From: a virus
Virus record (IMG/VR): IMGVR_UViG_3300010354_000892
Location: 1-20,241 of that record
Direction: 5' to 3' (one strand)
Length of the DNA stretch: 20,241 nucleotides
The notes under the pieces are model-generated. The model saw only the letters and a program-made list of their open reading frames with translations, searched no databases and was not told the DNA's origin. This document shows, one piece after another, positions 1,113 to 12,413 of the stretch. A program made the position numbers and the translations under genes. The first letter of the stretch is position 1, and each line of letters starts with the position of its first letter.

Positions 1113-1321
1113 GAGAGCACCTTCCAGCGGTCGATTTCGGGGTGACGCTTAGCGACCTCGCGCTTGGCGTCTCCGTAGGTGCCCCATGCCCATGCGATTG
1201 CGTCGGCGGGCATTTCTCCGGGCCAGATGGAGTCGGCGGGGACGAAAGCCCATGAGCCGGTTCCACGTGGCTTGCGCCCGTGGCTCCACTCGTATTCGGT
1301 CGTGTCCCATTCGCGACTCAT
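1109..1321 (-). CDS. Trp-rich small hypothetical protein, 70 aa
   Basis: ATG at 1321 follows GGAGGTG, a strong ribosome binding site 7 nt away, and overlaps the upstream stop as ATGA. Its own stop overlaps the next start as ATGA. The product begins MSREWDTTEYEWSHGRKPRG and carries seven Trp in 70 residues. It also has an alternating helix near AWAWGTYGDAKREVAKRHP. Two other frames here are open but lack this start/stop chain. Function unknown. Confidence 0.72.
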   Translation of the reverse strand: MSREWDTTEYEWSHGRKPRGTGSWAFVPADSIWPGEMPADAIAWAWGTYGDAKREVAKRHPEIDRWKVLS

Positions 1322-1518
1322 CGCGCCACCTCCGCAGAATCGCCATTCGTGGAGACGAGGCTGTAGCGGACCGCGATTCGGTGCAGCGCCTTAGTTGCTG
1401 CGTCTGCCGCTGAGGTGTTCTTCGTTGCGGCGTGCTCGTAGCGGGCGAGCATGATGAGCGCGTTGTCTATTGCGATGAGATCTTCGCGGGTCAGTTCGTT
1501 CAGTTCTGAGATGGTCAT
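1318..1518 (-). CDS. First gene of left operon; small helical protein, 66 aa
   Basis: The start is ATG at 1518, preceded by GAGGGGAAC and three bases, the same arrangement as the first gene of the other operon (12275). The frame is open further upstream, but that extension would cover the promoter, leader hairpin and methyltransferase end, so it is rejected. The product starts MTISELNELTREDLIAIDNA and looks all-helical, with no motif I can name. It is the promoter-proximal gene of the seven-gene leftward operon, and its stop overlaps the next gene as ATGA. Function unknown. Confidence 0.75.
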   Translation of the reverse strand: MTISELNELTREDLIAIDNALIMLARYEHAATKNTSAADAATKALHRIAVRYSLVSTNGDSAEVAR

Positions 1519-1531
1519 TTTGTTCCCCTCC

Positions 1532-1550
1532 GGCAGGCCCCTCGCCTGCC
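1532..1550 (-). promoter_or_regulatory. 5' leader hairpin of left operon
   Basis: A perfect 7-bp stem (GGCAGGC / GCCTGCC on the minus strand) encloses a 5-nt GAGGG loop. It sits a few bases after the predicted transcription start and about 10 nt before the ribosome binding site. The loop and stem share CGAGGGGCC with the leader hairpin at 12288-12309. A 5'-end stem-loop could protect the mRNA or gate translation. The fold is read by eye. Confidence 0.55.
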
Positions 1551-1561
1551 TCACACCCCTA

Positions 1562-1590
1562 ACGTTAGCGGCACGGGGGAGGCGCGTCAA
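1562..1590 (-). promoter_or_regulatory. Promoter P1 of left operon (TTGACG-17-TAACGT)
   Basis: On the minus strand, TTGACG (1585-1590) is separated by exactly 17 bp from TAACGT (1562-1567), a good sigma-70-class/group-1 match. The -35 box begins 2 bp after the methyltransferase stop. An AT-rich 13-mer, AGAAAAATATTTG (1611-1623), lies 20 bp upstream of the -35 inside the methyltransferase coding end, and the same 13-mer precedes the promoter at 12.3 kb. Predicted start near 1555. Confidence 0.7.
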
Positions 1591-1592
1591 GT

Positions 1593-2195
1593 CTATTCGG
1601 TCATCTTTCTCAAATATTTTTCTGCCTTCGCAAGACGCGCCGGATTTAACTCGTTCCCCCGAAACACCATCCCCATGCTTGCTGCCGCCCGCGCCGTATA
1701 GCCTGCGCCGCAACAGGGGTCGAGGACAGTCCACCCCGGACGAGCAATCGACCCGAGGACATGCTTCACAAACGGGAGCCCCTTCAGTCCGTGCAGATCC
1801 CTGAATGGAGCGTTCTCTCCTTCGCCGCGCCTGCCGTAAATCAGGACCGCCTGAATGTCTGCGCCATACCAGAACGGGACCGCCTCAGGGTCATGCAGCA
1901 CGGGCGCGACCGCGTTAAACATCTCCTGCCATGAAGCCCGCCCCACTTCGATGAACACGTAGTCCGTCACGTAACGGGAGATGAGATCCGCGTAACGGGC
2001 GCACACTTCCGAATAGGACGGTTGCACGGGTCGGACCCCGGTCGCCTTCTCCGTGTCAGTCGCGAACCGCTTCAGCAACGAGTCTCCCCACGGCGGGTCG
2101 CTGTAGAGGATTTGAATGGGCCGGTCAATGAGGGCGTCTACCTGCTCCCCCATAACGGAGCCCTGAGAGAGCCTATGCGGGCCTATGTGAATCAT
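1593..2195 (-). CDS. DNA methyltransferase (amino-MTase, permuted motif order)
   Basis: The 200-residue product carries the catalytic motif IV SDPPWG (residues 32-37) near its N-terminus and the SAM-binding motif I LDPCCGAGYT (158-167) near its C-terminus. This order is typical of permuted N6-adenine or N4-cytosine DNA methyltransferases. ELNPARLAKAEKYL after motif I fits the motif II region. It is short, with little space for a target-recognition domain. ATG at 2195 has GGGAGG 7 nt upstream and overlaps the glycosyltransferase-like stop as ATGA. A role in protecting phage DNA from restriction, or in base modification, is inferred. It closes the long operon, and its 3' end overlaps the upstream element of the next promoter. 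Confidence 0.88.
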   Translation of the reverse strand: MIHIGPHRLSQGSVMGEQVDALIDRPIQILYSDPPWGDSLLKRFATDTEKATGVRPVQPSYSEVCARYADLISRYVTDYVFIEVGRASWQEMFNAVAPVLHDPEAVPFWYGADIQAVLIYGRRGEGENAPFRDLHGLKGLPFVKHVLGSIARPGWTVLDPCCGAGYTARAAASMGMVFRGNELNPARLAKAEKYLRKMTE

Positions 2196-9790: not shown

Positions 9791-10587
9791 GAGATTGCCC
9801 TCTGTTGGCGCTGTGCGTCCCTCTGAGCGGCCCGTTCGATCATGCCCTGTACCTCCGTCACCTTGCGCTCGCTTCGGCCCTCACGGGGCGGCAGAGGGCC
9901 GTCTTGCCACCGCTCACCGTTCAGCCACGTCGCGGGGAGAGCCGTGAATCCTGCCTCCCGGTTCGGATCGTCCCGGTAGCGTGCCGCCCCCGCGATGATA
10001 TCGGAAGCGGGTGCCTTCCGTAGTGCTTTCATCCACGCTCTCCGAGCATGACCCTTGTCGTCTCTTCGGGGATAGGCCTTCCAGAATGAGAGCCATTCGG
10101 GGTCAGAGTCGAGATCGACCGGCTTTTGGACGAGAGAACTGTCTGCTTCAGATATGTCTGTCTTAGGTATGTCTGCTTCCCTATACAACTTTCTTGACGA
10201 CGGTCGTAAAGATTCTTGGGTAGGGGGTGGTAAAGATTCTTGACGACCCCCTGAAGATTCTTGCCACCTGAGGGTGTAGAGATTCGAGGACCGATCGCCC
10301 TTGTCGTCCATGCGGGGCTGTTCTGTCAGCGCCCCTATCCGGGCTAAGACCTCCCTTGCGGCGTCCACCGTCGGGATGCTCACTCCCATTCGATCCGCGA
10401 TTGCCCTCCGCGACGGGAAAGAGGATGCCCGGCCCATTGCGTAGGACTGCAGCACGAGATACAGGCGAACCGCGTTCGCGCTCGCATCCGGGTGGAATAG
10501 AACCCAGTGAGGGATGCGCTCATAGTTAGGCTGTTCGACAGCGAGTTGATGCCCATTCTCGGGCGTGTCGCTGATATTCTCTGTCAT
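9787..10587 (-). CDS. Replication initiator / winged-helix replisome organiser
   Basis: This 266-residue protein starts MTENISDTPENGHQLAVEQP with GGGAG 8 nt before the ATG. Residues 23-90 form a winged helix typical of phage replication proteins (IPHWVLFHPDASANAVRL, then FPSRRAIADRMGVSIPTVDAAREVLARIGAL). A polar linker (109-150) carries three QES repeats. The C-terminal part has FWKAYPRRDDKGHARRAWMKAL and FTALPATWLNGERW, the module shared by phage replication proteins that recruit helicase loaders. The linker is encoded by iteron-like repeats, so the origin may lie inside the gene, as with lambda O. The downstream 104-residue protein is coupled by ATGA. Confidence 0.82.
   Translation of the reverse strand: MTENISDTPENGHQLAVEQPNYERIPHWVLFHPDASANAVRLYLVLQSYAMGRASSFPSRRAIADRMGVSIPTVDAAREVLARIGALTEQPRMDDKGDRSSNLYTLRWQESSGGRQESLPPPTQESLRPSSRKLYREADIPKTDISEADSSLVQKPVDLDSDPEWLSFWKAYPRRDDKGHARRAWMKALRKAPASDIIAGAARYRDDPNREAGFTALPATWLNGERWQDGPLPPREGRSERKVTEVQGMIERAAQRDAQRQQRAIS
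10141..10190. other. AT-richer stretch next to iterons (possible unwinding element)
   Basis: This part of the replication gene is visibly richer in A and T than its flanks and carries its own short repeats: GTCTGCTTC at 10141-10149 and 10171-10179, and ATGTCTG at 10154-10160 and 10169-10175. It lies right beside the iteron-like array. In lambda and similar origins, an AT-rich melting region borders the iterons inside the initiator gene. Confidence 0.4.
10188..10288. repeat. Iteron-like array, putative replication origin
   Basis: The 9-mer AGATTCTTG occurs exactly at 10210-10218, 10234-10242 and 10255-10263. Related copies flank it (ACTTTCTTG at 10188, AGATTCGAG at 10280). Start-to-start spacings are 22, 24, 21 and 25 bp, about two helical turns, so the copies face a similar side of the helix. 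The array lies inside the winged-helix replication gene, encoding its polar QES linker. Coding-level repetition could explain part of it. Confidence 0.5.
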
Positions 10588-11800: not shown

Positions 11801-11952
11801 TCCATCCTCCACTCCAGTTCTCCAGCGGCGACGGCCCGAATAGCCTTATCCATGAAATCTCCCTCATGGGCCCGTTCCGCGAGGATTGAGAGGACCAGCG
11901 GGTCCATTCCCTTCACGATACGGAGCAGGGCTGACAGTTGCCGCGCCGTCAC
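11785..11952 (-). CDS. Small helical hypothetical protein, 55 aa
   Basis: The GTG at 11952 overlaps the upstream stop as GTGA and gives MTARQLSALLRIVKGMDPLV, then LSILAERAHEGDFMDKAIRA and WRMECQTN. The end overlaps the Gam start by 16 nt. It is mostly helical with no motif. The longer open frame upstream is out of register with any start signal and has shadow composition. Function unknown; second gene of the 12275 operon. Confidence 0.65.
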   Translation of the reverse strand: MTARQLSALLRIVKGMDPLVLSILAERAHEGDFMDKAIRAVAAGELEWRMECQTN

Positions 11953-12275
11953 GACAGGGACGCTTCGTAGGCGATTGCGCCGACCTGATCGGCGTACACG
12001 TCCTCCCACTCCTGCTTCCACGTCGTCTTGCCTGCCCGGTGATAGGCGCGGCGAACCACGTAGGTGTCGGCGGAGGTGAGGTGGACGGTAACCCAGTAGC
12101 CGTTGGCTACGGGCAGGAGCACGCCTTCGTGGGCCACGAGCACGCGCCCACCTGAGATTGCCATGACGTTGCCGCGCCCGATCTGATCTACAAGCACCCG
12201 TGCGTTGCACTTGCTGTAGTTATCCGCGGGCTTGTCCGCGTCGATCTTGTATCCGGTGATTTGTACCTGCTTCAT
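11949..12275 (-). CDS. First gene of main operon; hypothetical 108 aa
   Basis: ATG at 12275 follows GAGGGGAAC plus three bases, the same ribosome binding site design as the first gene of the left operon. An upstream open extension would cover the promoter and is rejected. The product begins MKQVQITGYKIDADKPADNY and is beta-rich (NVMAISGGRVLVAHEGVLLP, YWVTVHLTSADTYVVRRAY), with a C-terminal helix. No family is recognised. As the promoter-proximal gene it may be an early regulator, which is inference. Confidence 0.72.
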   Translation of the reverse strand: MKQVQITGYKIDADKPADNYSKCNARVLVDQIGRGNVMAISGGRVLVAHEGVLLPVANGYWVTVHLTSADTYVVRRAYHRAGKTTWKQEWEDVYADQVGAIAYEASLS

Positions 12276-12287
12276 GGGGTTCCCCTC

Positions 12288-12309
12288 TATCGGGCCCCTC
12301 GACCCGATA
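12288..12309 (-). promoter_or_regulatory. 5' leader hairpin of main operon
   Basis: A perfect 7-bp stem (TATCGGG / CCCGATA on the minus strand) encloses the loop TCGAGGGG, starting at about the predicted +1. The ribosome binding site follows within a few bases. The CGAGGGGCC of loop and stem is shared with the hairpin at 1532-1550. The loop exposes a ribosome-binding-like GAGGGG. Confidence 0.55.
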
Positions 12310-12314
12310 CCCCA

Positions 12315-12343
12315 AGAGTAGTGCGTCGCCCCCGTCACGTCAA
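12315..12343 (-). promoter_or_regulatory. Promoter P2 of main operon (TTGACG-17-TACTCT)
   Basis: TTGACG (12338-12343) and TACTCT (12315-12320) on the minus strand are separated by exactly 17 bp. An AT-rich 13-mer, AGAAAAATATTTG (12354-12366), lies 10 bp upstream of the -35 and could act as an UP element or regulator site. The same 13-mer and -35 occur at the left operon. Transcription would start near 12309 and read the recombination, replication and ParB genes. Confidence 0.72.
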
Positions 12344-12381
12344 GCGTGTCGAGCAAATATTTTTCTACCCGGACAACGTGC

Positions 12382-12413
12382 GGCCCCCGGCAGCGAGGGG
12401 ACCGCCGGGGGCC
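12382..12413 (-). terminator. Hairpin terminator candidate after lysis genes
   Basis: A perfect 10-bp GC stem (GGCCCCCGGC / GCCGGGGGCC) with a 12-nt loop lies 25 bp after the last lysis-region gene and 39 bp before the -35 of P2. There is no T-run, but GC-rich hairpins without U-tracts are common as terminators in high-GC Gram-positives. It would separate the late operon from the early operon. The whole 162-bp gap (12276-12437) holds this hairpin, P2 and the leader. Confidence 0.6.

Follow-up and report, generated by a model that had tools for sequence, protein, structure and literature searches.

Work cited in PMC3997798 has established, for E. coli and Bacillus, stem-loops that stabilize an mRNA from its 5' terminus. 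A related arrangement is known from cluster K, where the SAS is a fixed 13-mer (GGGATAGGAGCCC) that stands at the start, preceded by the ESAS, which combines an inverted repeat with a SigA promoter (PMC3203893; PMC11373665); the authors of PMC3203893 found little support for a hairpin at the ESAS. Cluster O mycobacteriophages carry 17-bp palindromes, TGTTCGG-N3-CCGAACA, with invariant arms (PMC4351075), and at rrnB P1 the alpha sites can shift one or two turns upstream (PMC4390567). The promoters and leaders of actinophages have so far been poorly defined. The put RNA of phage HK022, which spans about 70 nt and has two hairpins, acts on the polymerase, known CsrA sites have the core ANGGA, and the distal UP element has the consensus AAAWWTWTTTT.

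We analyzed a linear IMG/VR record of 20,241 bases (the window), in which the minus strand carries most genes between 188 and 13,719. Its source is an uncultured virus of actinobacteria, and we assign the repeated cassette described below (P1 and P2) to an actinobacterial phage. The closest terminases of named phages, at 52-53% identity, are those of Arthrobacter phages of the Laroyevirus group; IMG/VR contains many nearer terminase relatives (54-74%), and the gene order agrees in part with that of Edmundo (ParB-like, PAPS reductase, ParB-like, terminase). P1 lies after the terminase and methyltransferase genes. Its first gene (1318..1518, minus strand) encodes 66 aa and had no family match, while the DNA methyltransferase-like gene (1593..2195, minus strand; PHROG 67, E 1e-7; Pfam N6_N4_Mtase below cut-off) overlaps the P1 AT element. 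A single-protein scan of IMG/VR returned no relatives of the methyltransferase, and at the nucleotide level the P1 region matched none of the named phages searched. P2 has lysis genes before it and recombination/replication genes after it. The product of its first gene (11949..12275, minus strand; 108 aa) belongs to a conserved and widespread phage family of unassigned function with an AISGGR motif, present in 142 IMG/VR stretches (loci L387-L466). The family had no Pfam or PHROG match, and its one relative among named phages is in a Mycobacterium prophage (31% identity).

P1 and P2 are both on the minus strand, and all the parts listed in a preliminary description of P1 are present as written and in the same order at both sites: a 13-mer identical in the two, the hexamer pair TTGACG-17-TANNNT, a hairpin that exposes GAGGG(G), and GAGGGGAAC-N3-ATG. 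At P1, the AT element AGAAAAATATTTG (1611..1623) is embedded in the 3'-terminal part of the methyltransferase gene and separated by 20 bp from the -35 TTGACG (1585..1590), which is 17 bp before the -10 TAACGT (1562..1567) within the palindrome CTAACGTTAG. The leader hairpin GGCAGGC[GAGGG]GCCTGCC (1532..1550) begins 11 nt past the -10, near the predicted +1, and folds with -19.3 kcal/mol (z -2.1). The ribosome binding site GAGGGGAAC (1522..1530) and the ATG (1516-1518) follow; these parts (1516-1530) lie just outside the interval to which the module had been assigned (1532-1623). At P2, AGAAAAATATTTG (12354..12366) is 10 bp before the -35 TTGACG (12338..12343), the standard distance for a distal UP element, and the -10 (12315..12320) matches at the hexamer as TACTCT, again after 17 bp. 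The hairpin TATCGGG[TCGAGGGG]CCCGATA (12288..12309) begins 5 nt past the -10 and can also be drawn with a U bulge and C[GAGGG]G; its fold has -21.4 kcal/mol (z -2.7), and GAGGGGAAC (12279..12287) and the ATG (12273-12275) complete the module. In the fold of P2 (12276-12313, minus strand), a 5' GGGG can pair with the CCCC right before the ATG, leaving the SD in a bulge; the fold of P1 has no such closing helix.

Within the window, the 13-mer occurred only at P1 and P2, even at 3 mismatches; the chance expectation for more exact copies is about 8e-5, and the leader string CGAGGGGCC-N6-AGGGGAAC-N3-ATG is expected 1e-7 times. Exact matches to GAGGGGAAC-N3-ATG were likewise confined to the two sites. 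The pattern TTGACG-N17-TANNNT, with one mismatch allowed, also found only P1 and P2, but the hexamers alone prove nothing because 2.2 matches are expected by chance. The 13-mer and the leader string are thus not chance, and the weight rests on the combination of parts. A simple sigma70 scan called neither the P1 nor the P2 promoter, and no curated Rfam family matched either leader up to E = 1.

The core of the 13-mer, AAAAATATTTG, was searched for in IMG/VR at 5-30 bp before TTGAC-N18-TANNNT, with near-duplicates removed. Among the matches listed for viral contigs, 62/100 distinct sites had a gap of 9-11 or 19-21 bp, where 23 were expected (p 1e-16); the preference was gone in a control with a permuted -35 (CATGT), in which 4/34 fell at these gaps. 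The TTGACG version gave 45/105 at the preferred gaps (p 6e-6) among the matches listed for cellular genomes of many phyla. The gaps of P2 (10 bp) and P1 (20 bp) are the two preferred spacings. The argument in the preliminary description that the two elements differ in position by one helical turn (10 bp) was correct; going by these spacing statistics, the P1 13-mer lies one turn farther out than that of P2 and should therefore face the same side of the polymerase. A factor dedicated to the 13-mer, which had also been proposed, found no support, as unrelated viral contigs and cellular genomes of many phyla show the same two spacings; given this phasing in unrelated genomes, we rejected such a factor as the main reading. 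A common phase relative to the -35 in bacteria that are not related points instead to the alpha-CTD of RNA polymerase. The 13-mer is A/T-rich like the distal consensus and is in phase with the -35; it is best read as a putative distal UP element contacted by the alpha-CTD, a host factor and not a specific regulator. The P1 copy may be taken as a UP element of the distal type that is displaced upstream from its usual position by one helical turn. Its sequence supplies the last codons of the methyltransferase gene (...AEKYLRKMTE, then stop), and the codons GAA AAA TAT TTG AGA are rare in this genome (joint frequency 5e-5), which fits a possible DNA-level selection for A/T.

We consider it probable that P1 and P2 each comprise a portable promoter of the sigma70 type whose mRNA would start with a 5'-terminal hairpin followed by the SD, so that the end is shielded and the SD stays open. 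The two would be copies of one compact expression cassette. RNA polymerase carrying the main sigma factor would recognize TTGACG/TANNNT while its alpha-CTD grips the A/T-rich 13-mer, and transcription would begin next to the hairpin to give an mRNA whose 5'-terminal stem-loop exposes GAGGG(G), with the SD within 0-1 nt of the stem-loop and the AUG 3 nt past the SD. The stem-loop would most likely block 5'-end-dependent RNases and hold the SD accessible, yielding a stable and efficiently translated mRNA. A role of the loop and hairpin in RNA stability or translation had been suggested earlier and appears a sensible reading, given a kept loop on differing stems. The AGGG loop core would be an added feature, perhaps with a partner molecule of its own; a specific reader of it is possible. 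Against this account, a loop conserved in sequence exceeds the needs of simple end protection.

To follow the leader beyond the window, hairpins with a pentaloop and a stem of at least 6 pairs were counted across the terminase clade. AGGGA and AAGGG were the commonest loops among the pentaloop hairpins before an SD and start, with GAGGG close behind. We found 16 AGGG pentaloop hairpins in 2118 non-redundant clade leaders, about 19 times the 0.85 expected from 20 shuffles, none of which gave more than 3, although the counts come from related phages and are inflated by kinship (locus L161 contributes 6/16). The stem started 4-11 nt past a -10-like TANNNT in 16/16 cases, at about a putative +1; the -10-like hexamer had been no selection criterion. 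Clade-wide, 19/28 AGGG pentaloop hairpins lay between a -10 and an SD with start, compared with 16/1396 hairpins with other loops (p 4e-27), and the AGGG figures were 1/14 in unrelated viral DNA and 0/13 in cellular DNA. The stems of the 16 hairpins differ. This variety is no covariation test because the stems were picked for pairing, and a MAFFT alignment of 17 hairpins put the loops out of register; the independent evidence for the hairpin is its loop conservation and position. Since the hairpin returns in relatives with rewritten stems and the same loop, it is probably a genuine RNA element rather than an accident, and the clade data fit an RNA hairpin at or next to the predicted +1. The earlier remark that the loop is kept on differing stem bases thus extends to relatives, where the hairpin recurs as an RNA leader element. 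The genes behind AGGG leaders mostly encode small proteins unrelated to each other, which makes the leader portable.

These data also bear on an ordinary duplication, by which the likeness of P1 and P2 would stem from copying and the hairpins would be functionless. The fragment has only two copies, and the 13-mer and SD are common to both, as copying would predict. Spacer, -10, stem and UP spacing nevertheless differ while UP element, loop and SD are kept, and the same loop occurs with other stems in relatives far above chance, so that we regard plain duplication as most improbable.

P2 joins the AGGG set through its bulged-U or 8-nt-loop variant. Its promoter pattern was found in IMG/VR only in L131, where the leader reads ATGAGGGC[AAGGG]GCGCTCAT with one G-G mismatch, and in two contigs of L124/L125; the exact double-GAGGGG leader had zero matches elsewhere in IMG/VR. 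The leader of L124 orthologous to P2 keeps CGAGGG on a weak stem (fold z +0.6). Orthologous leaders of L166 keep the hairpin and not the loop, numerous 5' hairpins of Arthrobacter phage Ottawa occupy the same place with other loops, promoters without a hairpin occur in L202 and make up most of those in Edmundo, and 1260 leaders near more distant P2-gene relatives gave one new AGGG hairpin against 0.4 expected, with no enrichment. The 5' hairpin is therefore common but optional, and the AGGG loop is restricted to part of the clade. As for conservation of the module in relatives, promoter, 5'-terminal hairpin and SD were conserved, while the exact 13-mer module was not found. The observation made in the preliminary description is confirmed and its interpretation partly supported; its assignment of both operons to early expression is at most tentative. 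In Ottawa (L206) a similar cassette, at 10132, 11340, 11936, 12564, 13510, 14469, 35902 and 47158, runs in the order spacer palindrome, 5' hairpin (GGCCCC-type stem; loop GCAGG, ACCCG, ACCGG or AACCG) and SD. Around 600-660 of L390, near a P2-gene relative, a TTACAAT-type -10 is followed by one more leader hairpin with an AGGGA loop, TGCGGGG[AGGGA]CCCCGCA.

A constant loop core on changing stems, in a hairpin fixed at about +1 and repeated within genomes (six times in L161), is also what a site for a phage or host RNA-binding protein might look like, acting as a translational switch of the coat-protein or CsrA kind or in put-like antitermination; the AGGGA loops resemble the ANGGA core of CsrA sites. 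The AAGGG and GAGGG loops, however, lack GGA. The window loops are GAGGG and TCGAGGGG, and GGA was present only in the AGGGA loops of other lineages. The leaders of Ottawa and the orthologous leaders of L166 keep the hairpin without the loop, a candidate protein has yet to emerge, and the hairpin is far shorter than put RNA. The CsrA-like and put-like versions thus have weak or failing features, and we judge a protein site of this kind unlikely as the main function. A wider proposal is that a specific partner reads the AGGG loop, be it a phage protein or, from the terminator that precedes the leader, the complementary CCCCUC loop. All cassettes with this loop in a genome would then be post-transcriptionally co-controlled, and the leaders would form a new actinophage RNA leader family; the proposal is tentative and on the whole rather doubtful.

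The inverted repeat might alternatively act as DNA, as an operator for a repressor or activator like the cluster O palindromes or the ESAS inverted repeat. A TAAC-N-GTTA palindrome does sit in the -35/-10 spacer of many relatives, and CTAACGTTAG covers the -10 of P1, but P2 has no palindrome. Symmetric operators, moreover, conserve their arms and not the middle, while the leader stems have no common sequence between sites and the loop is the common part, which leaves an operator role for the leader hairpin highly improbable. The spacer palindromes themselves, CCTAACCCCGGTTAGG or CTAAACCCGGGTTTAG, fill the -35/-10 interval of many clade promoters (L202, L147-L150, L161, L204/L207 (Edmundo) and L206 (Ottawa)) and may be an operator-like repeat for a putative phage regulator. 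The P2-type promoters have ACGGGGG in the -35/-10 spacer (window 12315-12343, L124 2034-2064, L131 1503-1534, L129 1775), and the P1 spacer contains its reverse complement, CCCCCGT.

Upstream of P2, folding identified a terminator-like hairpin (12382..12413, minus strand) with the loop GGTCCCCTCGCT, which a scan for T-tailed terminators missed. Its loop core and an upstream GCTCCC are kept in L129, L124 and L131, where the hairpins, at 1697, 1993 and 1461, respectively, have the CCCCTC core on differing stems. Complementarity between the terminator loop and the leader loop with SD extends over 7 nt in the window and 8 nt in L129. On lysis-operon readthrough, the terminator loop CCCCUC might kiss the GAGGGG of the P2 leader loop/SD and silence P2 translation. 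The kept CCCCTC loop of the window, L129, L124 and L131 on its differing stems would suit such a pair, as would the complementarity itself (CCCCUCG/CGAGGGG in the window, CCCCUCAC/GUGAGGGG in L129). The four contigs are in effect two independent lineages, however; the partner in L129 is not in the hairpin loop, the complementarity comes to only about 5 nt in L124 and L131, P1 has no such terminator, and AGGG leaders occur far from any such terminator. We consider the kissing pair quite improbable.

The preferred reading thus remains a sigma70-type promoter joined to a 5'-terminal hairpin and SD, a regulatory cassette that is moderately novel and well supported, with a function that is inferred. 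In a clade to which cultured Arthrobacter phages belong, a portable cassette of UP element, promoter, 5' hairpin and SD, repeated before unrelated genes, would provide testable start-site predictions. A specific partner of the AGGG loop, if there is one, would make the loop a post-transcriptional switch for the whole phage. The spacing statistic also offers a simple way, scalable across bacteria, to test sequences for UP elements.

Compared with known UP elements, the 13-mer is similarly A/T-rich and helically phased, with the -35 about 10 or 20 bp downstream of it; it differs in that the P1 copy is in coding sequence, and its alpha-CTD binding is predicted from the DNA. Like put RNA of HK022, the leader is a structured RNA predicted at the very start of phage transcripts, but it has just one short hairpin, immediately ahead of the SD. 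Like the cluster O palindromes it is an inverted repeat that recurs, in part close to the starts of genes, while the arms of the leader vary and its loop is kept. The closest known arrangements are cluster K SAS/ESAS and the 5' mRNA stabilizers. P1 and P2 resemble the former as a repeated promoter with a start-site element before unrelated small genes, and relatives of this phage have an inverted repeat in the promoter spacer, like the ESAS. At the position 3-7 bp before the start codon where the SAS has its 13-bp GGGATAGGAGCCC, P1 and P2 read GAGGGGAAC; where the ESAS has a SigA promoter over an inverted repeat of 15-17 bp that is imperfect, the -10 of P1 has no more than CTAACGTTAG and that of P2 has no repeat. 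Unlike SAS/ESAS, the hairpin loop is constant here and the paired arms vary. The 5' mRNA stabilizers (E. coli papA and others, the Bacillus aprE leader and the Bacillus polypurine 5' stabilizer) differ from the phage leader family, known from sequence only, in that the latter has a conserved AGGG loop core, free stems and unrelated genes behind it; in both, a stem-loop at the 5' end, predicted in the phage, is followed by a strong SD.
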